This document shows, piece by piece, positions 9,523-26,239 of a stretch of 64,000 nucleotides of DNA. This stretch comes from Pseudodonghicola xiamenensis DSM 18339. Lineage in GTDB: Bacteria; Pseudomonadota; Alphaproteobacteria; Rhodobacterales; Rhodobacteraceae. Each line of letters begins with the position of its first letter. Position 1 is the first letter of the stretch. The DNA is taken from assembly GCF_000429365.1 (NCBI RefSeq), contig NZ_AUBS01000005.1, forward strand, positions 1 to 64,000. The letters are read 5' to 3'. A program made the position numbers and the translations under genes. The notes under the pieces were generated by a model that worked only from the letters and a program-made list of their open reading frames with translations, was not told where the DNA came from and did no database searches.

Positions 9523-9564
9523 TTTCATGACATGGAAGGGTACGTAAATCGCCATGCCATGAAA
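9523..9564. promoter_or_regulatory. Long imperfect inverted repeat before metR, probable MetR site
   Basis: Arms TTTCATGACATGG (9523-9535) and CCATGCCATGAAA (9552-9564) match at 12 of 13 positions. The left part, CTTTTCATGACA, recurs exactly in the metR-mesX gap. The repeat ends 14 bases before metR. Shared half-sites at both genes suit MetR autoregulation and target activation. Confidence 0.6.
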
Positions 9565-9578
9565 CCAAGTCAAGAGAC

Positions 9579-10451
9579 ATGCTCGACATTCAACCCCTCG
9601 CGATCCTGCGCGAAATCGACCGGACCGGAAGCCTGACCGATGCCGCAGATCGGCTGAACCTGACCCAGTCGGCCGTCAGCCATGCCATCCGCCGCTTCGA
9701 GGAGCGGTACGGGGTGAAGCTTTGGGAGCGGGAGGGGCGCAAGCTGCGCCTCACGCCGACGGGTGAGTATCTGTTGAGCCTGGCCGCGCGCGTCCTGCCG
9801 CAACTTGAACACGGCGCCACCGTGCTGGAGGATTTTGCACGCGGACGGCGTGGGGCGCTTCGGGTCGGGATGGAGTGTCATCCCTGTCAGGACTGGCTGA
9901 TGCGGATCGTCGACCCGTTTCTCGCGGCCTGGCCGGATGTGGATCTTGACGTCACCTCAGCCTTTCAGTTCGGGGGGCTCGCCGCGCTGCTGGGACACGA
10001 GATTGATCTGCTCGTCACCCCCGATCCGGTCGAGCGTCCGAGCCTCGAATATCGACCGGTGTTCAACTACGAGCTGGTTCTGGCCGTGGCCGATGATCAC
10101 CCGCTGGTCCGCAAACGGCAGGTCACGCCCTCCGACATGGCGCGCGAGACGCTCATCACCTATCCGGTCGCGCGCGAAAGACTTGATATCTATACCAAGT
10201 TCCTCGTACCCGCCCACGCCCTGCCGCGCCGGCATCGCACGGTCGAGACGACCGACCTGATGCTGCGACTGGTGGCGTCGGGGCGCGCGGTCAGCGCCAC
10301 GCCCGACTGGCTGCTCAGAGGTGCCAAAGGCGTGACGGGCGTGCGCATCGGCTCCGGCATTCCGAAGTCCATCCACGTGGGCTATCGGACGGGGACAATG
10401 CCGGGCTATCTTGAAGGGTTCATGCAACTGGCAGAATCTGTCGAGATCTGA
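9579..10451 (+). CDS. metR: LysR-family regulator, MetR-like
   Basis: This 290-residue LysR-type activator has the N-terminal winged helix-turn-helix (SLTDAADRLNLTQSAVSHAI) and a periplasmic-binding-like effector domain. MetR uses homocysteine as coactivator of methionine synthase genes. The AAWPDVDLDVTSAFQFGGLAALL region and the location directly before a methionine synthase operon support that role. The gene reads toward mesX, 186 bases away, with a matching operator-like motif before each gene. The exact effector is inferred from family. Confidence 0.85.
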   Translation: MLDIQPLAILREIDRTGSLTDAADRLNLTQSAVSHAIRRFEERYGVKLWEREGRKLRLTPTGEYLLSLAARVLPQLEHGATVLEDFARGRRGALRVGMECHPCQDWLMRIVDPFLAAWPDVDLDVTSAFQFGGLAALLGHEIDLLVTPDPVERPSLEYRPVFNYELVLAVADDHPLVRKRQVTPSDMARETLITYPVARERLDIYTKFLVPAHALPRRHRTVETTDLMLRLVASGRAVSATPDWLLRGAKGVTGVRIGSGIPKSIHVGYRTGTMPGYLEGFMQLAESVEI

Positions 10452-14556: not shown

Positions 14557-14585
14557 TCGCAAGTGTTACACAGTAACACTTGCGA
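14557..14585. promoter_or_regulatory. 29-bp perfect palindrome between adhC and glxA-like regulator
   Basis: Arms TCGCAAGTGTTAC (14557-14569) and GTAACACTTGCGA (14573-14585) flank only ACA. It lies 27 bases from the adhC start and 62 from the regulator start, placed to control one or both promoters. The core GTGTTAC-N3-GTAACAC is typical of TetR- or Fur-size dimer operators. No TetR gene is adjacent. Confidence 0.85.
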
Positions 14586-14646: not shown

Positions 14647-15675
14647 ATGAGGATGCCGACAGAGCAGGAACGGAGCGAGGCAACGGATCAGCGACGCCAG
14701 GTAGCGCTGATCATCTACCCCGGCTTCAAGACGCTGGAGGCGACCGGGCCGCTGAGTGTGCTGGACTATGCCTCCCAGCATCTCGCCGCTGCTGGGCGTC
14801 CGGGCGGTTATGATGTGGTCGTCGCCGCACCGCAGGCCGGACCCGTTCCGTCAGACACGCTGATATCAATCGAGGCCACCGTGGCGTTGCGGGATCTGGC
14901 TGCCCGCGACACCGTGCTGATTGCCGGCTCCACCCGAATCGAAGAGGCACTGACGCGCGAAACGGTCCTGGTGACCTGGTGTCGGGAAAACGGCCGGCAG
15001 GTACCCCGCTGCGCCGCGCTCTGCACCGGGTCGTTCTTTTTAGCCGAAGCCGGCCTGCTTGACGGCAAGCGGGCGGCAACCCACTGGAAATACGCGGACC
15101 AGTTGCACCAACGCTTTGCTGAGGTTGACGTGGATGCCGACGCGATCTTCCTGCAGGCAGGCGGTTTCTGGACCTCGGCCGGAGTGACGGCGGCGATTGA
15201 CCTGACCCTCGCCTTCGTCGAACAGGACTACGGTCGCGACATTGCGCTGGCCGTGGCGCGGGACATGGTGATGTACCTCAAAAGGCCCGGTGGCCAGTCT
15301 CAGTTCAGCACTCTGCTGACCGGCCAGATGTCCAACCAGACCGGAATGCGAGACGTTCTGACCTGGATGAACGAGCGGCTGGATCAGCCTTTGACACTCG
15401 AAGAGATTGCCTCGCAACAGGGCATGAGCGTGCGCAGCCTCACCCGCGCCTTCACGGCCGAAATCGGTGCCTCGCCCATGGCAACGCTGGAGCGCCTGCG
15501 CTGCGACCGGGCGAAGGCGCTGCTGCTCGATACCGACCTGCCGCTGAAGACCGTGGCCTACAGGGCGGGTTTTCGCACGGACGAACAGATGCGCAAGACC
15601 TTTCGGCGCCGGTTCTCTCTGTCGCCGCGCGACTACCGGGCGCGCTTCGCGACCTCGGGCACGCGGGCGGAATGA
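14647..15675 (+). CDS. GlxA-type AraC-family regulator with DJ-1/PfpI-like domain
   Basis: The N-terminal half is a DJ-1/PfpI-like domain (VALIIYPGFKTLEATGPLSV, then CAALCTGSFFLAEAGLLDGK with the nucleophile-elbow Cys). The C-terminal third is an AraC double helix-turn-helix (LEEIASQQGMSVRSLTRAF and KTVAYRAGFRTDEQMRKTF). Such regulators act on amine, carnitine or C1-related catabolic genes. The likely target is the divergent adhC. I chose the ATG at 14647, behind GCAGGAC. A longer frame to 14563 would start inside the palindrome. 342 residues is normal for the family. Confidence 0.88.
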   Translation: MRMPTEQERSEATDQRRQVALIIYPGFKTLEATGPLSVLDYASQHLAAAGRPGGYDVVVAAPQAGPVPSDTLISIEATVALRDLAARDTVLIAGSTRIEEALTRETVLVTWCRENGRQVPRCAALCTGSFFLAEAGLLDGKRAATHWKYADQLHQRFAEVDVDADAIFLQAGGFWTSAGVTAAIDLTLAFVEQDYGRDIALAVARDMVMYLKRPGGQSQFSTLLTGQMSNQTGMRDVLTWMNERLDQPLTLEEIASQQGMSVRSLTRAFTAEIGASPMATLERLRCDRAKALLLDTDLPLKTVAYRAGFRTDEQMRKTFRRRFSLSPRDYRARFATSGTRAE

Positions 15676-15725
15676 TGCCTTGCGATCCTTGCCCCCGGAA
15701 ACACGAAGCCCCGGGGGCGCGGCGC

Positions 15726-16364
15726 TCAGTGGAGGTACGCAACCTCGCTTGCCTGCGCGGGGTCTTCGACCGGATCGAGCACCAGTAGCAGTCGTGTTTC
15801 CCCGGTGCCGGCAATCGGCGGCGAGCGATGCAGAAGACCAGAGAGCGGGGCTTCCGGCCACCGTGTCCCGCGCAGGATGACGGGCGACCCGGTCGGGACG
15901 GTCATGACCTCGATGGGATCACTTCCATCGCCGAAGATCCCGTATTGCGTCCCCGTTCCCCGATAGGTGCAGATCAGCCGGGCCGTCACCGCGTCGACAT
16001 GAAACTTCCGGCAGGCGTTGGTCTGCACAACGTCGAGGCGCAGCTGCAGGTAGGGGCAATCCATGACGTCGGAAAAGATCAGTGCCAGCGCCGACGCATC
16101 CTCGATCAGCATGTTGCGCTCCGGGCCCTCCGGGGTTCCGCAAAAGCGGGTGATCTCGGTCAGCGCATCGCACACCGCTTCGGACCTCAGGATAACGCGG
16201 GCGCGCGGCAATTGCTCTGGCGGCAACGCGTCGATCCAGTTTTGGAACCGGCTGAGCGGGCTCCGCTCCCAGAGTGTGGCCGCGGTACCGGGTCGGTGAA
16301 TGGCCGATAGACCTTCGGGACTAGATCCAAAAGTCATGCATTGCTTCAGCTCTTCGGCGACCAT
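15726..16364 (-). CDS. DUF1826 protein, last gene of the zinc-island chain
   Basis: This is a 212-residue DUF1826 protein (HRPGTAATLWERSPLSRFQNWIDALPPEQLPRARV near the start; FHVDAVTARLICTYRGTGTQ; GLLHRSPPIAGTGETRLLLVLDP at the end, with conserved His). Its function is unknown. From memory, the family occurs beside Zur-regulated COG0523 metallochaperone genes, which fits this locus, although no COG0523 gene is present here. The start is the ATG at 16364, which shares its A with the stop of the preceding gene (TGATG). Confidence 0.82.
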   Translation of the reverse strand: MVAEELKQCMTFGSSPEGLSAIHRPGTAATLWERSPLSRFQNWIDALPPEQLPRARVILRSEAVCDALTEITRFCGTPEGPERNMLIEDASALALIFSDVMDCPYLQLRLDVVQTNACRKFHVDAVTARLICTYRGTGTQYGIFGDGSDPIEVMTVPTGSPVILRGTRWPEAPLSGLLHRSPPIAGTGETRLLLVLDPVEDPAQASEVAYLH

Positions 16365-16849
16365 CAGTTTGGTTCCGGCGGCAGGTAAGGCAGCGACGAG
16401 TGATGCAGGACGATGCGCAGCGTGCCGGTTTCGTCCTTCTTGTAGCCGAAGCTCTTGTCGACCGTGGTGACGGAGCCGTCCTTGTTGGTGAGCTTGATCC
16501 GTCCCATCCACATCGCGATATCGCCCTGGATGAACGTGGTGGAGGTGATGTTCTCGGTCGCACGCCAGCCCATGATCGCGAAACCGTTGTCGAGCGGATA
16601 TTCCTCGGAATGGCCACAGAAATAGGCCAGGGCGCCGGCCTTTTTCGGGCGGAAGGTCTGTTCGCCACTCGACATGGTCGGTTTGAACAGCACGGGTCCG
16701 AGGTTGTACCCATAGTAGCTGTCCAGATTGGCCGACGCGACCTTGCGAGCGGCCTCGATGCCGCCCTCCTCGAAGGCCTTCGAGATGGCGATCTTGCCAT
16801 TGCCCCATGTCACCAGGGCCTGTTCAATCTCTTCCTGCGTGATCTGCAT
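16364..16849 (-). CDS. NTF2-like (SnoaL-type) protein
   Basis: This 161-residue protein has the pattern of an NTF2-like cone fold: helices at the start (TQEEIEQALVTWGNGKIAIS), YGYNLGPVLFKPTMSS, then strands GFAIMGWRATENITSTTF, AMWMGRIKLTNKDGSVTTVDKSF and LRIVLHHSSLPY with a conserved His pair. No enzymatic role can be assigned. The start follows the DUF35 stop with no gap (TAG then ATG), and its own stop overlaps the DUF1826 start, so it is translated as part of the zinc-island chain. Confidence 0.75.
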   Translation of the reverse strand: MQITQEEIEQALVTWGNGKIAISKAFEEGGIEAARKVASANLDSYYGYNLGPVLFKPTMSSGEQTFRPKKAGALAYFCGHSEEYPLDNGFAIMGWRATENITSTTFIQGDIAMWMGRIKLTNKDGSVTTVDKSFGYKKDETGTLRIVLHHSSLPYLPPEPN

Positions 16850-17335
16850 CTATTTTCCTTCCATCTGTCTTTTGTCCAGAAACCGCGCCGTGGCTGGGCC
16901 TTGGTGCCCCAGGCCTGCACCGCCTCGTCCAGATTGTCCCTCGTTGCTGATCGGCGTGAACATCGGCAACAGCTGGCCGCTGGCACTTGGGACAAAGGTC
17001 ACCTTTACAGGCTCCCCAATTTGAACACTGCTGACATCACACTCTGTCAGAGCGCTCAAAATGATCGGGCCCTCGGCCAGCTTGACATAGGCGATGCAGT
17101 GGGGCGCGCCGCAACGCTGTGTAATGCTGAAGGCATAGATCTTCCCTGCCCCGCTGGCCTCGAACCATTCCGTTTCCGGACGCCCGGTAAAGGGGCTGAT
17201 CCGCCGCGGGGGATGAAAGGCACGTCCCGAACCCAGGCAGCGCTTCAGCAGCAGACGACCTTCGTTGGCCGCATCCCAGAACTCGGCGGTTTCCGACGTC
17301 GGCTCCGGGGCGATTGGAAGCGTGGTTCCGCTCAT
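16850..17335 (-). CDS. DUF35 OB-fold protein with degenerate zinc ribbon
   Basis: DUF35 proteins pair a rubredoxin-like zinc ribbon with an OB fold and partner thiolase-like or acyl-CoA enzymes (as ChsH2 does with Ltp2). Here the ribbon has Cys33, but the other three expected Cys positions are Ser36, Ser47 and Thr50 (KRCLGSGRAFHPPRRISPFTG), so zinc is unlikely to bind. The OB fold follows (GKIYAFSITQRCG; HCIAYVKLAEGPIILSALTECD; GEPVKVTF). The start is the ATG at 17335, one base after the thiolase-like stop. The C-terminal 40 residues are unusual and low in complexity. Confidence 0.82.
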   Translation of the reverse strand: MSGTTLPIAPEPTSETAEFWDAANEGRLLLKRCLGSGRAFHPPRRISPFTGRPETEWFEASGAGKIYAFSITQRCGAPHCIAYVKLAEGPIILSALTECDVSSVQIGEPVKVTFVPSASGQLLPMFTPISNEGQSGRGGAGLGHQGPATARFLDKRQMEGK

Positions 17336-17336
17336 T

Positions 17337-18521
17337 TCAAACCCTTTCAAGAATGAGAGTTGCGCTGCCGTGCCGGGACGCGAGCTGTCCTCCGGTGCCA
17401 TGCACAAGAGCCAAGCCGCAATCGGGCACCTGCACTGCCGGATGCGCCTCGCCGCGGAGCTGCCGCACCGCCTCGATCAGCTTCGTCATGCCCCCTCGAT
17501 TGCCGGGATGATTGCTGCAAAGGCCGCCGCCATCCGTGTTGATCGCAAGTCGGCCAACCCCGGCAATCAGGTTTCCGTCTGCCACGAACCGACCGCCCTG
17601 GCCGACCGGACAGAACCCGAGGTTTTCGAGTTGAACGAGCACAGTGATCGTGAAGCTGTCGTAGATCGACGCATAACGAATGTCCTCTGGCCTCACACCT
17701 GCTTCGGCGAAAGCCTCTGCGCCCGATTTCACGCCACCGGACTCGAGAATGTCGAAATAGCCTCCGTTCAGATGCTTGACCGTGAATCCCGCTCCTGTTG
17801 GGGTGATCATCGGTCGGTCGAGCGCTCGGGCCACGTCCGGGTGGACAATGACCAGAGCCCCTCCGCCGTCGCTGATGACGCAGCAATCCAACCGGTGCAA
17901 AGGGGTTGCGACCATCGGCGAGGCGAGGACATCCTCCACCGTCACGACCTGGCGAAGCATCGCATTGGGATTGTGCTGCGCGTGGTGTGACGCGGCAACC
18001 TTGATCCAGGCAAGTTGTTCTGGCGTGGTCCCATGTTCGTACATGTGCCGAGCAGCCACCATCCCATACATGTTGGTGACAACCGGGCCATAAGGCAGTT
18101 CAACCTGCGCTTCATGCGCCGATTGTGTCTGCTCTGCATGCATGCGCTCGGGCGAGAGGCGCTCAGCCCGGGGACGACCCGCTTGGGTGATCAGCGCGAC
18201 CCGGCACTTGCCCGCCACGATGGCCTGAACGGCATGGGAGACATGGTTGATATAGGCCGATCCCCAGCTTTCCGTGGTGTCTAGATGCCGGAGATCCAGC
18301 CCGAGGTATTCAACCATCGAAAATGGGCCACAGCCCGGCGCGTCCCAGCCCGCCACGTCGCCCGCACAGAAGTATCCATCAACATCGCTGAGGGTGAGCC
18401 CTGCATCGGCCAGGGCGCCGACGGCAACTTCGGCATGCAATTGCGCGAGCGGAATACGCGTCGCGTCACGGGTATGATGCTCGTAGGCGCCGACGACAAA
18501 TGCCTGGTTCCTCAGGGTCAT
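17337..18521 (-). CDS. SCP2-thiolase-like protein (Ltp2-type), nucleophilic Cys absent
   Basis: This 394-residue protein of the thiolase superfamily, lipid-transfer branch, begins [20 protein letters not shown] and ends in a normal thiolase C-terminal half ([22 protein letters not shown]). Where biosynthetic thiolases carry the acyl-accepting Cys, this protein reads [13 protein letters not shown], so it probably does not perform thiolysis. Ltp2-type relatives act as acyl-CoA retro-aldolases with a DUF35 partner, and a DUF35 gene follows after 1 base. The start overlaps the folE2 stop by 4 bases (ATGA). Substrate is unknown. Its place in a zinc-response chain is unexpected. Confidence 0.85.
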
Positions 18522-19456
18522 GGCGCCCCTCGCAGACCCTCTGCCAAGCTCCCCGCCGCGTCCGGTTCGGCCCAGGCGACCGCGTCATGGGGATGAAGGC
18601 TCTCGATATGGCGCACATGGACCTTCGGCGCATGGAACCCGTCCAAGGCACAGGCGATACGCCGCGCAGCATCTTCGACAAACATCAGGTTGCGCCCATT
18701 GAGCACCGCAAAGGCCTGCTCATCTGCGCGCTTCACGCCTGTCTGTACCGGGGTCTGTACGGCCGCTTCGATCTGATCAATAAGGGCGACCAACCCGAGC
18801 CGATCCTCTCGTTCAGGATCTTGGGAGACCGAAACCCGGGCCTCACTGCGCTGACTATGGGGCGTCGCCGCAGTTGCGTGTATGTTAAGCCATGCCGCGA
18901 TCTCATCCGGGCTTACCTCTTTGCGACCCGCAAACGCCTCCCGAAAGGCCTCTGCGACCACCTGTCGCGAAAGCGCGGCCGAGCAGGGACAGGTCGAGGA
19001 GTAAACAACGCAGACCTCGGTCCGGCAGGAAAACCTACCCTTGATCAGGCTTGTATCGATCTGCACCGGATAGGACTTCCAACCGGCCAGATCATCAGTC
19101 ACCAAGGCGGGCCGGCGGATCAGTAGGTTGAACTTTATGCGCAGCCGCGCATTGCCGCTGCCACAATCGGCATGGCTGTCGAGCATGCGACGAAGAAGCC
19201 CCTCGAGAGCGCCAGGTGACACGGCTGTGTCGGCGCCGAACGCATCGAGCAGTCGATAGAGCCGCGACATATGGATGCCTTTGGCTTCCGGGCGCGGTAG
19301 GTCGACCTGCATATCGACACGGGCATGCAGCTTGGCCAGGCAATCGGGCTCCGAGATCTGCAGGGGCAAGTCAATGCCCTGCATCCCCACCCAGCCAAGA
19401 GGAAGCCGGGCGGAGGCAGTCTCGGAAAGCGAAATATCGGGAAGTTCGGCGTTCAT
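18518..19456 (-). CDS. folE2: GTP cyclohydrolase IB (FolE2), zinc-independent type
   Basis: FolE2 makes dihydroneopterin triphosphate from GTP, the first step to folate, and can use metals such as Mn instead of the zinc needed by FolE. It is a classical Zur-controlled replacement enzyme. Family motifs are [11 protein letters not shown] with the metal-binding Cys and [12 protein letters not shown]. 312 residues is normal. It starts 46 bases after zur and its stop overlaps the thiolase-like start, so it belongs to the chain from cysS2 to the DUF1826 gene. Confidence 0.95.
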
Positions 19457-19502
19457 ATCCAGGTAAACCTGTTCTTTGATACAGTATCGACTGGCGGGCA
19501 GC

Positions 19503-20012
19503 CTAGTGCCGCCACGCCGCTCGCCGCGCGGTTGGCAGCGGACAGCAAACAGCCTCCAGCTTGGGGGGCATCGGATCAGCTATTGCGGAGAGCCTCCGGC
19601 CCCCACCCCCCTCCGGCGCAGGCATGCGCGCATTGCAGGCCGCACAGATGCCATGAACCTCGATGACATGGTGTTGCGAGCTGAATCCAGTTTCGGCAAC
19701 GACGTGGGAGACAGCCTCCAATACCTCGCCTGCGAGGTGCTCCTCAATGGCACCGCAATTCTCGCAGATCGACAGGATGGACGCGCGCGCATGTTCCTTA
19801 CACTGACAGGCGACATAGGCCTTCAGGGTCTCGACCCTATGGGCCTGCCCCTTGCTCATCAGCGAGGAAAGCGCCCGGTAGACGGCCGGCGGCGCAATTT
19901 TCGGATGTGCGTCCCGCAGTTCCTCCAGCACCTTGTAGGCTGACAGGGCCAGATTGCGGCGGCGCAATATGGCAAGCACGTCCGCCTGCATCTGTTCCCC
20001 GGGCGTCGTCAT
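19503..20012 (-). CDS. zur: Fur-family regulator, Zur type
   Basis: Zur represses zinc-uptake and zinc-sparing genes when zinc is sufficient. The winged-helix part ([25 protein letters not shown], then [14 protein letters not shown]) is of Zur rather than Fur character. Two Cys pairs for structural zinc are present (SICENCG and CAACNAR), with the sensory HH segment between ([11 protein letters not shown]). I chose the ATG at 20012, whose A is shared with the thrS2 stop (TGATG), giving 169 residues. The last 40 residues (from PEGGGGRR) are an unusual extension. Being inside the chain it probably controls, it would autoregulate. Confidence 0.85.
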
Positions 20013-21934
20013 CAGCCCAGCTCCCGAGGGGGGTGCGCCCGCCGCGCGAGACAATTGACGGCCTCCCCGAGATCCAGCGTCTGCGTCCCTTCGGTGCCGT
20101 GGCGGCGGATCGTGACGGTTCCCTGCTCAGCTTCATTTGCGCCAAGGGCGATCTGAACAGGCACCTTCTTCAGCGCATGTTCGCGCACCTTGTAGCCGAT
20201 CTTCTCGTTGCGCAGATCGGTCTCGACACGCAACCCGGATGCGCGAAGCGTTGCGGCCACCTCGGTTGCCCAGGCATCGGCCGCCCCTGTCACGGTTGCG
20301 ACCACCACCTGAACCGGCGCCAGCCAGAGCGGCAGGTGACCTGCATGGTGTTCGATCAGGATGCCGGTGAAGCGCTCCAGCGACCCGAAGAGCGCCCGGT
20401 GCAGCATGACCGGCGCCAGCTTTTCCCCCGAGGGCGCGACATAGGTCGAGCCGAAACGCTCGGGCAGATTGAAATCGACCTGTAGCGTGCCGCATTGCCA
20501 GTCCCGCCCGATGGCATCGCGCAGAACGTATTCCAGCTTGGGGCCGTAAAAGGCGCCCTCCCCTTCGAAGATCGTATAGGGATGCCCGGCCTGGTCGAGC
20601 GCCTCGCGCAGCGCTTCCTCGGAGCGATCCCAGCTTTCCTCGCTTCCGATCCGGTTTTCGGGCCGGGTGGAGAGCTTGATGCGCACATCCTCGAAGCCGA
20701 AATCGCGGTAGATCGACATCACCAGGTCGTTGACCTTCAGGCATTCCTCGGTCAGCTGCTCCGGCGTGCAGTAGATATGCGCGTCGTCCTGGGTGAAGCT
20801 GCGCACCCTGAGCAACCCGTGCAGCGCGCCCGAGGGCTCATAGCGATGCACCTTGCCGAACTCGGCCAGCTTCAGCGGCAGGTCCCGGTAGCTCTTGGTG
20901 CCCTGCCCGTAGATCAGCATGTGACCGGGACAGTTCATCGGCTTCAGCGCATAATCGCGATCGTCCTGGGTTTTGGCCAGGAACATGTTTTCACGGTAAT
21001 TCTGCCAGTGACCAGAGGTCTCCCAAAGACTGCGGTCCATGATGTCGGGCGAATTCACCTCGACATAGCCGGCCTCTTCCTGACGCGCGCGCATGTAGCC
21101 GATCAGCGTCTGGAACAGCCGCCAGCCATTCGGGTGCCAGAAGACAGATCCCGGGGCGACCTCCTCGAAGTGAAAGAGGTTCATCTCGCGGCCAAGCCGC
21201 CGGTGGTCACGCTTCTCGGCCTCGGCCATCATGGTCATATGGGCGTCGAGCGCTGCCTTGTCCGCGAAGGCCACGCCATAGATCCGGCTGAGCATCTTGT
21301 TGTTCGCATCGCCCCGCCAGTAGGCCCCGGCAACACGCGTCAGCCTGAAAGCCGTCCCGGCATCGCCCGTCGTGCGCATATGGGGACCACGACACAGGTC
21401 CAGCCAGTCGCCCTGCCGATAGATCGTGACCGGCTCTCCCTCCGGGATCGCGTCAAGCAGCGCGATCTTGTAGGTCTCGCCAGCCGCCTCGAAATGGGCG
21501 CGGGCTTCCTCCCTTCCCCATTCCTCGCAGGTGAAGGGGGTGCGGGCGGCGATGATCTCGCGCATCTTTTGCTCGATGACCGGCAGCTCTTCGGGCGTGA
21601 AGGGCGTTTCGCGGTCGAAATCGTAGTAGAATCCATGTTCGATGGCCGGGCCGATCGCCGTGCGCGTACCGGGCCAAAGAGCCTGCACCGCCTCGGCAAG
21701 AACATGGGCAAGGTCATGGCGGATCAGTTCAAGCGCGCGGGGATCGTCGCGCGCAACCAGCTCCACCGCCGCGCCATCGGGCAGCGGCGCGGACAGGTCG
21801 CTCAGCCGCCCGTCCACGATCGCGGCCACCGTGCGTTTGGCAAGGCTCGGGCCGATGGAGGCCGCCAGATCGGCGGCAGTGCTGGACGGAGACAGGGCGC
21901 GGCTGGCCCCATCGGGAAGACGGACATGGATCAT
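20012..21934 (-). CDS. thrS: Threonyl-tRNA synthetase, probable second copy (ThrS2)
   Basis: This complete 640-residue enzyme charges tRNA-Thr. It has a TGS domain (1-60), an editing domain ([11 protein letters not shown] and [11 protein letters not shown]) and a class II core. The three zinc ligands of ThrRS are kept: Cys in MNCPGHM, His in QDDAHIYC and His in MLHRALFGS. It is therefore not zinc-free. Zur-controlled second ThrRS genes are known from cyanobacteria and thought to take over under zinc shortage. The start is the ATG at 21934, overlapping the yidD stop (ATGA). That it is a paralogue is inferred from its neighbours, since the rest of the genome is not visible. Confidence 0.93.
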
Positions 21935-22179
21935 TTCGTGGTCTTTCGGTTCGGGACGGCCGGCACCGGGTCGTATCCGGACCCGCCCCATGGATTGCAT
22001 CGCGCAACGCGGCAGATCGTAAGCCACAGCCCACGTAGGGGCCCGTGGGTTTCCAGCGCCTCGATGGCATAGGCGGAACAGGTCGGCTGAAACCGGCAGG
22101 CATGGCCCAGCCAGGGCGACAGGAACAGCCGGTAGCTCCGGAACGGCAGGATCAGAAGCCAGACCATCACCACCCTCAT
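21931..22179 (-). CDS. yidD: YidD membrane protein insertion efficiency factor
   Basis: This 82-residue YidD-family protein has an N-terminal hydrophobic segment ([22 protein letters not shown]) and the signature [15 protein letters not shown]...HG. YidD normally lies beside rnpA and yidC and assists the insertase. Here it is wedged between cysS2 and thrS2 with 4-base overlaps on both sides. An alternative start is the ATG at 22167. This copy is likely an extra one carried in the zinc-island chain. The three conserved Cys are present. Confidence 0.9.
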
Positions 22180-23516
22180 GCCCGCACCCGCCAGTGACTT
22201 TCGCCGTCGACGTCCTCAATCTCGACCCCCATAGCGGTCAGCGTGTCGCGCAGCGCATCCGCATGGGCCCAATCGTGCGCGGCACGGGCGCAGGCGCGTT
22301 CGGCGATCAGCGCCTCGATCCGGCCAACATCAGCCGCACCGGCCTGGCTCCAGGCCGTCGCGTCCTGCGCCAGCAGTCCCAGAAGCCCGCCCGCCTGCCG
22401 CAGGGCCGCCGCAAGCTCGGCCCGCCGGGCGGGATCGGTGGCGGCGTGGATCTGCCCCGCAAGCGCATGAAGGGCCGCAAGCGCTGCCGGCGTGTTCAGA
22501 TCATCATCGAGCGCGGCGCGCACCGGCGCCATGTCCTCATCCTGCGCCTCGGCAGGCGGCTGATCGCGCAGCGCGCCATAAAGACGGTCGAGCGCCGCCC
22601 GCGCGGCGCGCGGCGTCTCGTCCGTCCAGTCCAGCGGCTGGCGGTACTGCGCGGACAAAAGCGCATAGCGGATCGCCTCGCCCGGCATGTCCGCCAGAAG
22701 ATCCCGCACAAGAAGGACATTGCCGAGAGATTTCGACATCTTGGCCCCCGACACGGTGACATGGCCGTTATGGACCCAGAACCGCGCATCGGTGCCCTGG
22801 GCGATCTCGTTCTCATGATGCGGAAAGCGCAGGTCGATCCCGCCGCCATGGATGTCGATGTGATTCCCCAGATGGGTGCGGATCATGGCCGTGCATTCGA
22901 TATGCCACCCCGGGCGGCCAAAGCCCCAGGGGCTGTCCCATCCCGGCTGTCCGGCCTGCGAGGGTTTCCAGAGCACGAAATCACGCGGGTCGCGTTTCCA
23001 GGGCGCAACCTCGACCCGGGCACCGGCACGCATTTCGTCGGGATTGACACCTGAAAGGCGGCCATAGGCGGCAAAACTCGGGACATGGTACAGCGCGTGG
23101 CCTTCGGCGGCATAGGCGTGACCTGCGGCGATCAGCTCTTCGATGATCGCGATCATCTGTGCAATGTGGTCCGTCGCGCGCGGCTCGACATCCGGCGGCA
23201 GGACGCCCAGGGCGGCAAGGTCAGCGTGATAGGCGGCGGTGAAACGGGCCGAAATCGCGTCACAGGGGACACCGGCAGCGGCGGCCGCTGCGATGATCTT
23301 GTCATCTACATCGGTGATGTTGCGCGCATAGGTCAGCCGCGGGAACCGGGCGCGCAGCACCCGTGCCAGAACGTCGAACACGACCGCGGGCCGCGCGTTG
23401 CCGATATGGGCATAGGAGTAGACCGTCGGCCCGCAGACGTACATGCGCAGCTGTCCAGGATCGCGCGGAACGAAAGGTTCAACCCTGCGCCCCATAGAGT
23501 TGAAAAGACAGAGCAT
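22176..23516 (-). CDS. cysS: Cysteinyl-tRNA synthetase, probable second copy (CysS2)
   Basis: This class I synthetase charges tRNA-Cys and uses zinc to discriminate cysteine. Zinc ligands remain: Cys in YVCGPTVY, Cys in GWHIECTAM, and His and Glu in [14 protein letters not shown] (AHIGNAR) and KMSKS (KMSKSLGN) motifs are present. I prefer the ATG at 23516, which has GAGGTG 11 bases upstream, over the TTG at 23525 that is nearly touching it. It is the first gene of the leftward chain, about 110 bases from the Zur box, and overlaps yidD by 4 bases. Zinc dependence makes it a logical member of a zinc-shortage set. Confidence 0.92.
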
Positions 23517-23627
23517 CTTCAGCAATCCACCTCAAAGAACGACGTGATTTCTGTTCCTTGAACGCTCTTGGATACCCTTGGATGCGCCATCTCTTTACTT
23601 CTCCAACCTGATCGGCCAAACAGGGAT

Positions 23628-23644
23628 ATGTTATATTATAACAT
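23628..23644. promoter_or_regulatory. Zur box in the divergent cysS2/hisI2 promoter region
   Basis: Perfect palindrome with arms ATGTTATA and TATAACAT around a central T. The core TGTTATANTATAACA closely matches alphaproteobacterial Zur sites as I know them. It ends 20 bases before the hisI2 start, over its likely -10 region, and lies about 110 bases from cysS2. It could repress both directions, or only hisI2. It also decides the hisI2 start, since an upstream ATG at 23578 would put the box inside the coding region. Confidence 0.85.
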
Positions 23645-23664
23645 TACACAAGGGACCAAACGCA

Positions 23665-24141
23665 GTGACGACGATTCTGACATTCCAACCGCGAACCTCG
23701 GTCGAACAGGTCGAGGAAGGGACTGACCTCTCACCCAAGTTTGGATCGGATGGCCTGCTGCCCTGCATCACCACCGATGCCCATAGCGGCGAGGTCCTGA
23801 TGCTGGGCTGGATGAACGACGAAGCGCTGCGCCTGACGATCACCACCGGCGAGGCGCATTACTTCAGCCGATCGCGGCAAAGCGTCTGGCACAAGGGTGC
23901 CACCTCCGGCCTGCTGCAGAAGGTGGTCGAAGCGCGGATCGATGACGATCAGGATGCGATCTGGCTCAGCGTGGAGGTCGCCGGTTCGGGCGCGTCCTGC
24001 CATGTCGGCTATCGCTCCTGCTTCTACCGCGCCCTGCCTGTCGGGACCGACGCGGGCAAACCGCTGGCATTTGTCGAGGATCGGAAAACCTTTGACCCGC
24101 TCAAGGTCTATGGCGATGCCCCCAATCCGACCCAGCTGTGA
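23665..24141 (+). CDS. hisI: Phosphoribosyl-AMP cyclohydrolase variant (HisI2) with a lost zinc Cys
   Basis: HisI opens the purine ring of phosphoribosyl-AMP in histidine synthesis and normally holds zinc with three Cys. The C-terminal pair is present (Cys112 and Cys119 in [12 protein letters not shown]). The first Cys, within the D-C-D-x-D motif, is replaced by Asp94 (IDDDQDA). The family core [23 protein letters not shown] is intact. I chose GTG 23665, behind an AGGGA site and after the Zur box. 158 residues is somewhat longer than the usual 120-140. It leads the rightward operon hisI2-ribD-pyrC2. Activity with an alternative metal is an inference. Confidence 0.9.
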
Positions 24142-24829
24142 CCTGGCCTGGATGCAACATGCGCTGACCCTGGCCGCAGGGATGCGCGGGCATGTCTGGC
24201 CGAACCCGCCCGTTGGCTGTGTCATAGCCCGCGACGATGACCTGATCGCCGAGGCGGCCACGGATCCGGGCGGTCGCCCTCACGCAGAACGCAAGGCACT
24301 GGAACTTGCCGGTTCCGCTGCGGCGGGGGCCACGCTTTATGTCACGCTGGAGCCCTGCTGCCATTGGGGAAGAACGCCTCCCTGCGCCGATGCCATCATT
24401 GCAGCCCGCGTTTCGCGGGTCGTCTGCGCCATCCAGGATCCAGACCCGAGGGTGAACGGTGGTGGCTTTGCCAGGTTGCGGGCGGCAGGTGTCAATGTAG
24501 AGGTCGGCCTTGGCGCCGAAGAGGCGAGGACACTGATGTCGGGCTTTTTCCATCGCATAGAGACCGGCACGCCGGAGGTCGTTGTACTGGAACGGCCCCC
24601 GGTCGCGATACCCGCGGGGGTAGATGCGGTCATCCGCTCTGACGGGGATCGCGCAACCCTCATCACGCGCCACGAAACGAGGGTCGAGCGTTTCCGCCTT
24701 GCGGAACCTGCAAGCCATGGGTTGCCTGCGCACCTGGGAAAGATGGGGCTGACCTCGGTCGCCGTGGCAGTCGATGATCCGATTGCACCCCAACTGCTTG
24801 CCCCTCCGTTCCCGCGGAGGAGGGTCTAG
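24116..24829 (+). CDS. ribD: RibD-type deaminase with shortened, degenerate reductase part
   Basis: RibD deaminates and then reduces a pyrimidine intermediate in riboflavin synthesis. The deaminase domain is complete: [20 protein letters not shown], zinc motif HAE (PHAERKAL) and PC-x8-C ([12 protein letters not shown]). The usual reductase domain of over 200 residues is reduced to about 80 weakly related residues ending PFPRRRV. Alternative starts are ATG 24110 and 24152. It overlaps the end of hisI2 by 26 bases and precedes pyrC2, so it shares the Zur-box promoter. It may act as a deaminase only, or on another substrate. Confidence 0.8.
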
Positions 24830-24910: not shown

Positions 24911-26239
24911 ATGGCCCACTACGATACCCTTTTCAGAAACGGCACGATTGCCAATCAGGACGGTGTCAGCACCGCTGACATCGGGGTGCGCGCCGGGCGC
25001 ATCGCCGCGCTTGGCTGCCTGAGCAGTGATACTGCGACGCATGTGGAAGACTGCACCGGCCTGCACATCCTGCCGGGTGTCATCGACACGCAGGTCCACT
25101 TTCGCGACCCGGGCCTGACCCACAAGGAAGATCTGGAAACTGGCTCGCTCGGGGCCGTCATGGGTGGCGTGACCGGGGTCTTCGAGATGCCCAACACGGA
25201 TCCCCTGACGACAACGCAAGAGGCTTTCGAGGCCAAGATCGCCTCGGCCACGGGCCGGATGCATTGCGATTTCGCCTTTTACATCGGCGGCACCCACGGG
25301 AACATTTCCGAGCTTGCGATGCTGGAAAAGCTGCCCGGCTGCGCCGGGATCAAGGTCTTCATGGGTTCATCGACCGGCGCGCTTCTGGTGCAGGACGACG
25401 CGGGGATCGAGGCGATCCTCTCCGCCCTCTCGCGCCGCGCCGCCTTCCATAGCGAAGACGAATACATGCTCGAACAGCGCAAGCCCCTGCGGGTGCCGGG
25501 CGATCCGTCCAGCCACCCCGTCTGGCGCTCTCCCGAGGTCGCGCTGAGTTCGACTAGACGGCTGGTCGCCCTGGCGCAGAAGACCGGCAAGCGCATCCAT
25601 GTCCTGCACGTCTCGACCGGCGAGGAGATGGAGTTCCTGGCCGAGCACAAGGACGTGGCCAGCGTCGAGGTCACGCCGCATCACCTGACGCTGGATGACA
25701 CCACCTATGCCCGCCTTGGCAATTACGCGCAGATGAATCCTCCGATCCGCGACGGGGTGCAGCGCAGGCGGATCTGGCAAGGCGTGGAGAACGGGGTCGC
25801 CGATATCCTTGGCTCCGACCATGCGCCGCACACACGGGCGGAAAAGGACCTGCCCTATCCGCAAAGCCATTCCGGGATGACCGGCGTCCAGACGCTGGTC
25901 CCCACAATGCTGGACCATGTCAACGCGGGCCGGATGAGCCTTGCCCGCTTCGTCGACATGACCAGTGCCGGGCCCAATCGCCTGTTCGGCATCGCGGGCA
26001 AGGGACGCATCGCCGTAGGGTATGACGCCGATCTGACGATCGTGGACCTGAAGCGCCGCGAGACGATTACGAATGACTGGATTGCCTCGCGGGCGGGCTG
26101 GACGCCCTATGATGGCGTGCCGGTCACCGGCTGGCCGGTGGGCACCGTGCTGCGCGGGCATCGGGTGATGTGGCAGGGAGAGCTGCTGGCACCCGCCAAA
26201 GGGCAGCCCATGCGATTTCTCGAAGCATTGCCGCACTGA
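24911..26239 (+). CDS. pyrC: Dihydroorotase variant (PyrC2) with DxQxH instead of DxHxH
   Basis: Dihydroorotase closes carbamoyl-aspartate in pyrimidine synthesis, normally with two zinc ions. In this 442-residue amidohydrolase the first metal motif, usually D-x-H-x-H, reads DTQVH (Asp59, Gln61, His63). Other ligands are present: Lys148 (IKVFMGSS), His180 (FHSEDE), His233 (LHVSTGEE) and Asp303 (SDHAPH). A DxQxH subfamily is, from memory, common in alphaproteobacteria. Loss of one His should weaken one metal site. It lies 81 bases after ribD and is probably the last gene of the Zur-box operon. Confidence 0.9.
   Translation: MAHYDTLFRNGTIANQDGVSTADIGVRAGRIAALGCLSSDTATHVEDCTGLHILPGVIDTQVHFRDPGLTHKEDLETGSLGAVMGGVTGVFEMPNTDPLTTTQEAFEAKIASATGRMHCDFAFYIGGTHGNISELAMLEKLPGCAGIKVFMGSSTGALLVQDDAGIEAILSALSRRAAFHSEDEYMLEQRKPLRVPGDPSSHPVWRSPEVALSSTRRLVALAQKTGKRIHVLHVSTGEEMEFLAEHKDVASVEVTPHHLTLDDTTYARLGNYAQMNPPIRDGVQRRRIWQGVENGVADILGSDHAPHTRAEKDLPYPQSHSGMTGVQTLVPTMLDHVNAGRMSLARFVDMTSAGPNRLFGIAGKGRIAVGYDADLTIVDLKRRETITNDWIASRAGWTPYDGVPVTGWPVGTVLRGHRVMWQGELLAPAKGQPMRFLEALPH

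Follow-up and report, generated by a model that had tools for sequence, protein, structure and literature searches.

An iota-carbonic anhydrase-like gene and a thiolase-like/DUF35 pair with a depleted zinc ribbon in a putative zinc-starvation operon of Pseudodonghicola xiamenensis

Introduction

Why would a thiolase-like gene and a DUF35 gene, whose products normally act together in acyl-coenzyme A (acyl-CoA) chemistry, be joined to folE2 in a run of genes that looks like a response to zinc shortage? The question is raised by a stretch of 64,000 nucleotides of Pseudodonghicola xiamenensis DSM 18339 (Rhodobacteraceae; positions 1 to 64,000 of contig NZ_AUBS01000005.1, hereafter the window), in which the pair, a third small gene and a DUF1826 gene follow folE2 on the minus strand. 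An earlier, sequence-only reading proposed that these genes are produced together as part of a zinc-response chain, and that they might make a metal-binding metabolite or be a zinc-free replacement for a zinc-containing acyl-CoA complex. Here we argue, with a probability of about 0.68, that the run is a zinc-starvation operon through which the cell obtains enzymes that need no metal or no zinc, the pair included. The third gene appears to encode an iota-carbonic anhydrase, and the DUF35 protein has lost three of its four zinc-ribbon cysteines, a point missed by the earlier reading.

Results

A Zur-box-like site heads a nine-gene run

The co-directional run cysS-yidD-thrS-zur-folE2-thiolase-DUF35-iota-carbonic anhydrase-DUF1826 comprises nine genes on the minus strand (Table 1). 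Upstream of its first gene lies the perfect palindrome ATGTTATATTATAACAT, identical to RTGTTATANNATAACAY, which we take to be the Zur-box consensus; that a Zur box heads the run is thus supported, and we propose the site as an operator acting in both directions. The window holds seven matches to this consensus with up to three mismatches on both strands, versus 0.23 expected. The tight junctions after folE2 on which the earlier reading relied are borne out: folE2 ends and the thiolase gene begins in a shared ATGA (18521-18518), a single base separates the thiolase stop (17337) from the DUF35 ATG (17335), the DUF35 stop (16850) is followed with 0 bases between by the ATG of the third gene (16849), and the TGA of the latter shares its A with the DUF1826 ATG (TGATG, 16364). 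The ATG of the regulator gene at 20012 likewise has one base in common with the thrS stop. Short gene overlaps are commonplace in bacterial operons. Within 15600-24200, promoter-like matches (1 versus 1.7 expected) and terminator-like matches (4 versus 5.3 expected) are at chance level; both scans are weak, the former because the sigma-70 consensus alone was covered. With the perfect site at the head, no more than chance signals inside, and the pair found in zinc clusters of other genera (see below), the proposed zinc-response chain holds up, and membership of the run in a zinc operon appears well supported on sequence evidence.

We also scanned 100 loci (80 thiolase loci and 20 iota-carbonic anhydrase regions, 1.5 Mb), with ten Markov shuffles as a control. 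There are 15 matches with at most two mismatches, compared with 0-3 per shuffle, and five with at most one mismatch, compared with 0 in the shuffles. Nine of the 15 head zinc clusters, at loci L013, L014, L015, L020, L133 (two, overlapping), L139 (two) and L140, and one (L037) lies beside a gene read as a ZnuA-type binding protein. Allowing 0-3 mismatches, Zur-box-like sites are at the heads of the zinc clusters of L013, L014, L015, L020 (two mismatches), L021 (three mismatches), L133, L139 and L140.

A 13-base perfect inverted repeat (TCGCAAGTGTTAC/GTAACACTTGCGA) occupies 14557-14585, between a zinc-type alcohol dehydrogenase gene and an AraC/DJ-1 regulator gene, and similar sites occur in L013, L014 and L015, near 11.9 kb. 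This repeat is possibly the operator of the AraC/DJ-1 regulator.

The third gene is related to iota-carbonic anhydrases

A Pfam search at E 1 gave nothing for the third gene, called NTF2-like by the earlier reading. Its solved relatives are the iota-carbonic anhydrases 7c5v (E 1.7e-41, residues 3-155) and 7c5x (E 6.4e-60), which we assigned to all2909 and Bn86287, respectively, from their one-domain and three-domain lengths. The equivalog model NF047901 is matched with E 3.1e-52 and 176.9 bits, below its curated cut-off of 350 bits, which is reached by none of 295 Rhodobacteraceae genomes; because the cut-off is missed, the gene is filed by kinship to solved COG4337 proteins only. Five active-site residues, Thr58, Tyr76, Phe90, His149 and Ser151, correspond to Thr106, Tyr124, Phe138, His197 and Ser199 of all2909 (numbering of PMC8132391, mapped by hand onto our alignment) and are the same in all 31 iota-carbonic anhydrase rows aligned. 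According to the available parts of PMC8132391, changing these residues to alanine abolished or weakened activity. The protein shares with all2909 and Bn86287 of that study the sequence, the HHSS motif and the active-site Thr, Tyr, His and Ser, and differs from its COG4337 proteins in being single-domain, with no evident signal peptide, and in lying in a zinc operon. Most bacterial COG4337 members are predicted there to carry a signal peptide, as L122, L125 and other rows appear to by eye, whereas the window protein begins, also by eye, at the conserved domain. Taken together, the identification as an iota-carbonic anhydrase by kinship is well supported, and a role in CO2 hydration is likely.

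In the Rhodobacteraceae sample of 295 genomes (match threshold E 0.001), 30 have an iota-carbonic anhydrase match, two of them very weak, 54 have DUF1826, and 18 have both. The two genes are no more than 1.1 kb apart in four genomes (the window, G053, G226 and G056), the order thrS, iota-carbonic anhydrase, DUF1826 being kept in G226 and G056; a weak match in G194 lies 4 kb from DUF1826, and in G139, where the contig ends, its neighbor is a COG0523 gene. The clusters of G053, G226, G056 and G139 showed no thiolase pair. Ten of the 30 loci had flanks of 1.5 kb or less, one of the ten repeating G157. In a wider sample of 385 Alphaproteobacteria (threshold 1e-20), 17 have a match. A zinc-linked iota-carbonic anhydrase is, in these samples, peculiar to some members of one family. 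A beta-carbonic anhydrase family member is present in six of the eight genomes with a zinc-linked iota-carbonic anhydrase, and that of P. xiamenensis retains the CxDxR and HxxC motifs.

The earlier reading had tied the third gene to acyl-CoA chemistry, and it would then be a SnoaL- or hydratase-like accessory of the pair. It does adjoin the pair in the window, L013, L014 and L015, but it is close to solved iota-carbonic anhydrases with all five active-site residues kept, L133, L139 and L140 have it together with DUF1826 and not the pair, and the pair goes without it in L020 and L021. An accessory role is therefore hardly credible and we rejected it; given the identity of the gene and its presence in zinc-gene clusters that lack the thiolase pair, the three genes do not form a single acyl-CoA unit.

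Three further observations concern iota-carbonic anhydrase genes elsewhere. In L137 a cytosolic-looking one (9561-10034) is placed, by eye, between apparent fabA/fabB-fabI genes and an Irr-like Fur regulator gene. Nine of the 17 Alphaproteobacteria with a match (G302, G323, G435, G533, G535, G550, G561, G613 and G627) have genomes of 1.4 Mb, and the frame in G561 contains three stops.

The thiolase resembles aldolases of the Sal/Ltp2 type

The predicted model of the thiolase-like protein superposes on Sal (9myr_A; Z score 45.4, root-mean-square deviation 2.8, 378 aligned residues), on 4u4e (Z 44.4) and on Ltp2 (6ok1_C; Z 43.0), and the closest solved protein in sequence is 4u4e, a putative thiolase of Sphaerobacter thermophilus (263 bits). 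Its YDSF motif aligns with YDHF and YDCY, Tyr287 taking the place of Sal Tyr302 and Ltp2 Tyr294. Ser289 occupies the place of Cys304 (Sal) or His296 (Ltp2), and His338 that of Ltp2 Tyr344. Because the second catalytic residue of Sal (Cys304) or of Ltp2 (Tyr344) is absent, with Ser289 and His338 instead, the enzyme works like Sal or Ltp2 at most, and we file it as neither. Across 91 thiolases, the paralog of the same genome included, Tyr287 and His338 are invariant and Ser289 varies once. The presumed nucleophile column (Trp86 in the window, within WGSA), placed by our judgement, holds Gly in 75, Trp in 16 and Cys in none of the 91, and in eight a Cys lies two columns further on. The absence of the nucleophilic Cys, to which the earlier reading drew attention, is confirmed, but as a family trait it is no special sign and was rejected as such. 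Since there is no such Cys, retro-aldol or related acid-base chemistry is more likely, as judged from these residues, than thiolysis.

Compared with the steroid aldolases Sal-Shy and Ltp2-ChsH2, as described in the available parts of PMC12329534, the window system is alike in the thiolase fold, the DUF35 partner and the Tyr of YDxF. It differs in having YDSF instead of YDCY or YDHF, and in a DUF35 protein that has lost three zinc ligands and is not joined to a hydratase; and, unlike in the Sal and Ltp2 systems, no steroid genes were seen in the run. The same source describes PhlABC, a DUF35/thiolase complex that acylates phenols, and some ribbonless relatives of the window pair adjoin aromatic genes; an acylated phenol could thus be the metal-binding metabolite once suggested as the product. 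However, the nine genes of the run include no KAS III (PhlA-like) partner, no CoA ligase and no exporter, and the nucleophile place has no Cys. We found no evidence for such a metabolite and regard this explanation as very improbable.

The DUF35 partner has lost zinc-ribbon cysteines

An OB-fold domain is recognised in the DUF35 protein (PF01796, E 1e-12; model Z score 17.0 to 9myr_B, Shy, and 6ok1_B, ChsH2), and its four ligand positions read C-S-S-T in place of C-C-C-C. In 82 DUF35 rows (the 80 loci, the window and the second pair of the same genome on contig C36), the ligand columns are CCCC in 59, CTST in 10, CSST in four (the window included) and other in nine. The last nine rows, a Roseomonas-type group plus L068 (L056, L057, L058, L062, L082, L084, L085, L090 and L068), carry NTCD in six and NTDD, NTCS and CSDS in the others, with no zinc link seen; theirs is apparently a separate loss. 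According to the available parts of PMC12329534, the substrate cleft of Sal owes its shape to the DUF35 zinc finger; by analogy, a zinc-less ribbon may also tune substrate choice.

Residues 132-161 of the window protein (16850-16942) form a low-confidence tail in the model, and the frames of the window and L013 run about 25-30 codons beyond other ribbonless members (those with CTST or CSST). The tail is perhaps a shifted frame or a new tail.

Distribution of the pair

The best 80 of 569 candidates from a scan of genome contigs were taken as thiolase loci, and in all 80 a DUF35 match follows the thiolase. Row set A1 contains 51 of 81 DUF35 sequences and A2 35 of 81 thiolases, L014 being omitted for its stop; on short contigs (L017, L136 and others), genes past the contig end are outside view. 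The thiolases of the 14 CTST/CSST rows form one clade (SH-aLRT 100) in a quick tree, in which the C36 copy sits on a very long branch and its placement was unused. Six of these 14 pairs are zinc-linked (the window, L013, L014, L015, L020 and L021); they need three changes on the tree, at least two of which are forced by well-supported branches. Of the 80 loci, 13 are ribbonless, and these include all five that are zinc-linked. Upstream of the zinc-linked pairs are folE2 (the window and L013), thrS (L014 and L015) and a zigA-type gene (L020 and L021), and in Celeribacter an ATGA overlap identical to that of the window joins the thiolase to thrS. The surveyed neighbourhoods thus do not sustain folE2 as the partner that matters, and we rejected it as a fixed partner. 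The zigA-type gene of L020 scores 603.5 bits against NF038288 (cut-off 600), that of L021 is 92% like it, and in both loci the order is Zur-like site, zigA-type gene, thiolase-DUF35.

At E 1e-130 the thiolase is matched in ten of the 295 Rhodobacteraceae genomes: that of the window and nine in which the identity is 61-68%. The DUF35 neighbours of those nine (L142-L150) keep four cysteines, a second G215 copy being outside the comparison.

Entry into a zinc operon as the cause of ribbon loss is weakened as an explanation, because ribbonless pairs also occur where no zinc link was seen and because the ligands of the Roseomonas-type group and L068 changed without one. As read from these sequences, ribbon loss and zinc control coincide in part and are not one event.

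Could the pair be a spare that needs no zinc, kept alongside a zinc-ribbon pair of the same genome in the manner of C-minus ribosomal proteins? The window genome has on C36 a second pair whose C-C-C-C ribbon is intact and whose thiolase is 45% identical, and the Pararhizobium and Flavimaribacter genomes have two and three other DUF35 proteins, respectively, with four cysteines in place. However, the C36 pair is distant in sequence and sits in a different acyl-CoA cluster, and Pseudooceanicola endophyticus (the closest relative detected) and both Celeribacter genomes show no DUF35 match at E 0.01 other than the ribbonless one, so that a backup of a homologous zinc protein is hard to see there. 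The spare-copy explanation is weakened by these three genomes, and we consider it distinctly unlikely. The suggestion of a zinc-free replacement for an acyl-CoA complex accordingly survives in part: the lost ribbon ligands favor it, and replacement of a homologous complex fails in the three genomes with no other DUF35.

Other features of the locus

Among the remaining features (Table 1), the regulator gene has Zur (NF008646) as its best NCBIfam match, with 106.7 bits, below the cut-off of 167. DUF1826 is named in the Zur-cluster figure legend of PMC2770081, as available.

A second folE2 of the window genome is on contig C8 (L007, 6574-7677). The frame at 24141-24829, between hisI and the pyrC-like gene, looks by eye like a RibD-type deaminase with apparent zinc ligands HAE and PCC..C.

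Table 1. Features of the zinc-linked run and its divergent neighbors in the window
Feature	Position	Strand	Evidence
DUF1826	15726..16364	-	PF08856 E 3.4e-53
Iota-carbonic anhydrase by kinship, COG4337 type	16364..16849	-	similarity to 7c5v/7c5x
DUF35 partner	16850..17335	-	PF01796; PF12172 partial
Thiolase-fold, Sal/Ltp2-like enzyme	17337..18521	-	NF006010 670.9 bits, cut-off 462
folE2 (GTP cyclohydrolase, non-FolE1 type)	18518..19456	-	NF010200 294.6 bits, cut-off 215
Zur/Fur-family regulator	19503..20012	-	PF01475 above cut-off; reading frame open to 20054
thrS paralog (threonyl-tRNA synthetase)	20012..21928	-	PF00587 E 6.4e-46
yidD	21931..22179	-	PF01809 E 2.1e-28
cysS paralog (cysteinyl-tRNA synthetase), first gene of run	22176..23519	-	PF01406 E 2.3e-112
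Zur-box-like palindrome, proposed operator	23628..23644		between cysS (-) and hisI (+); 0 mismatches to assumed consensus
hisI paralog, divergent from cysS, same operator region	23665..24141	+	PF01502 E 4.5e-30
Dihydroorotase-like amidohydrolase (pyrC paralog; named by resemblance to Zur clusters)	24911..26239	+	PF01979 E 7.7e-22

Discussion

Several results weigh against a zinc-starvation role for these enzymes. Five of the 15 Zur-like matches lie elsewhere than in zinc clusters or at L037: at the AraC/alcohol dehydrogenase pair (L014 and L015), at a contig end (L140), and in L088 and L131, where there is a match with at most two mismatches and no zinc gene was seen nearby. No strong zinc gene is seen in 16 of the 20 iota-carbonic anhydrase loci with longer flanks, L124 among them offering a weak COG0523 match. 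When the 400 bases preceding each of 27 such genes were scored, none contained a site above the 99% background level, and two (L138 and L119) contained one above the 95% level. DUF1826 is on the same contig in none of the 16 other iota-carbonic anhydrase genomes among the 385 Alphaproteobacteria, and two of the eight zinc-linked genomes (G053 and G139) show no beta-carbonic anhydrase. The alignment behind the DUF35 model includes zinc-binding relatives, so the modelled ribbon is not independent evidence. The five zinc-linked ribbonless loci among the 80 are relatives of one another. In L037, whose ribbon is intact, a Zur-like site and apparent znu-type genes lie about 5 kb upstream, and in L045 the opposite strand carries a weak match to COG0523 (35%). 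Around eight of the 14 ribbonless pairs the DNA examined showed no zinc gene, and their neighbors, tested for L016, L019, L023 and L024 and read by eye for the other ribbonless loci, include enoyl-CoA hydratase, ADP-forming CoA ligase, SDR, acyl-CoA dehydrogenase, acetoacetate-CoA ligase, class III extradiol dioxygenase and syringate demethylase. In Celeribacter sp. HF31 (L014), codon 281 of the thiolase is a stop, a sign that the gene is dispensable in this strain or that the sequence is faulty.

The mostly catabolic neighbors of those eight pairs, the interrupted L014 thiolase, and the lack of a pair in the other iota-carbonic anhydrase/DUF1826 clusters would all fit a catabolic pair that landed in a zinc operon as a passenger, of no benefit in zinc shortage. 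Against this, the pair is zinc-linked in two branches, four named genera and three families, and it overlaps folE2 in one zinc-linked locus and thrS in another; we judge the passenger explanation fairly unlikely.

Under the preferred reading, that of a zinc-starvation operon, Zur would leave the operator at 23628 when zinc is short, and the run from cysS to DUF1826 would be made, as the site and layout suggest. The iota-carbonic anhydrase would hydrate CO2 in the cytosol at a metal-free Thr/Tyr site, as its kinship and residues indicate, and may stand in for the zinc beta-carbonic anhydrase encoded elsewhere. From its predicted fold and residues, the thiolase/DUF35 pair would be an aldolase-type complex like Sal-Shy or Ltp2-ChsH2, with Tyr287 and probably His338 as acid-base residues acting on an acyl-CoA; the DUF35 ribbon would hold its shape without zinc. 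The tree suggests entry of the pair into zinc operons on probably two occasions, out of a ribbonless clade in otherwise mostly catabolic clusters. By analogy, our best guess for its substrate is the acyl-CoA side chain of an aromatic compound. The pair may replace an unrelated zinc enzyme, as the iota-carbonic anhydrase and FolE2 would, or serve a need of zinc shortage, or be a passenger. A broader proposal, which we put forward tentatively and hold to be doubtful, is that zinc-starvation operons of Rhodobacterales and Rhizobiaceae work by swaps of unrelated enzymes, with a metal-free iota-carbonic anhydrase (in Rhodobacterales) and a zinc-stripped aldolase-type pair (in both) that replaces an unrecognised zinc-dependent enzyme of carbon-carbon bond chemistry.

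The Zur clusters presented in the available parts of PMC2770081 are alike in the Zur-like gene, Zur-box-like site, folE2, cysS, thrS, hisI, amidohydrolase and DUF1826, and the Zur-regulated zinc-independent or extra paralogs listed there are FolE2, CysS, ThrS, HisI, PyrC, gamma-carbonic anhydrase and DksA. As the gamma class and the paralogs are already on that list, the kind of system is known. The window differs from those clusters in having a carbonic anhydrase of the iota class, not the gamma class, and in the additional thiolase-like/DUF35 pair; neither 'thiolase' nor 'DUF35' is mentioned in the main text of that paper, as available. A Zur operon of Cupriavidus metallidurans includes a carbonic anhydrase of a class not stated in the available part of PMC11340326. 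In the open-licence literature we found no paper that links iota-carbonic anhydrase to Zur or zinc limitation, and the listed papers on COG4337, all2909 and metal-independent carbonic anhydrase, among others, have no such link in their titles or the starts of their abstracts. PMC8132391 proposes metal-poor habitats as the reason for a metal-free iota-carbonic anhydrase, and its available text has no mention of 'Zur'. As far as the literature searched shows, the iota-carbonic anhydrase and the ribbonless DUF35 are new in a zinc operon.

The metal-free carbonic anhydrases, reported in 2021, have been proposed as enzymes for metal-poor life, and the placement of one under a Zur switch beside FolE2 would be a direct genetic test of this idea. 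Judging from the ligand loss in DUF35, structural zinc may be dispensable for a class of acyl-CoA complexes. The pair itself may reflect a metabolic demand of zinc-starved cells that is absent from the earlier Zur-cluster list, as given in the available parts of PMC2770081.

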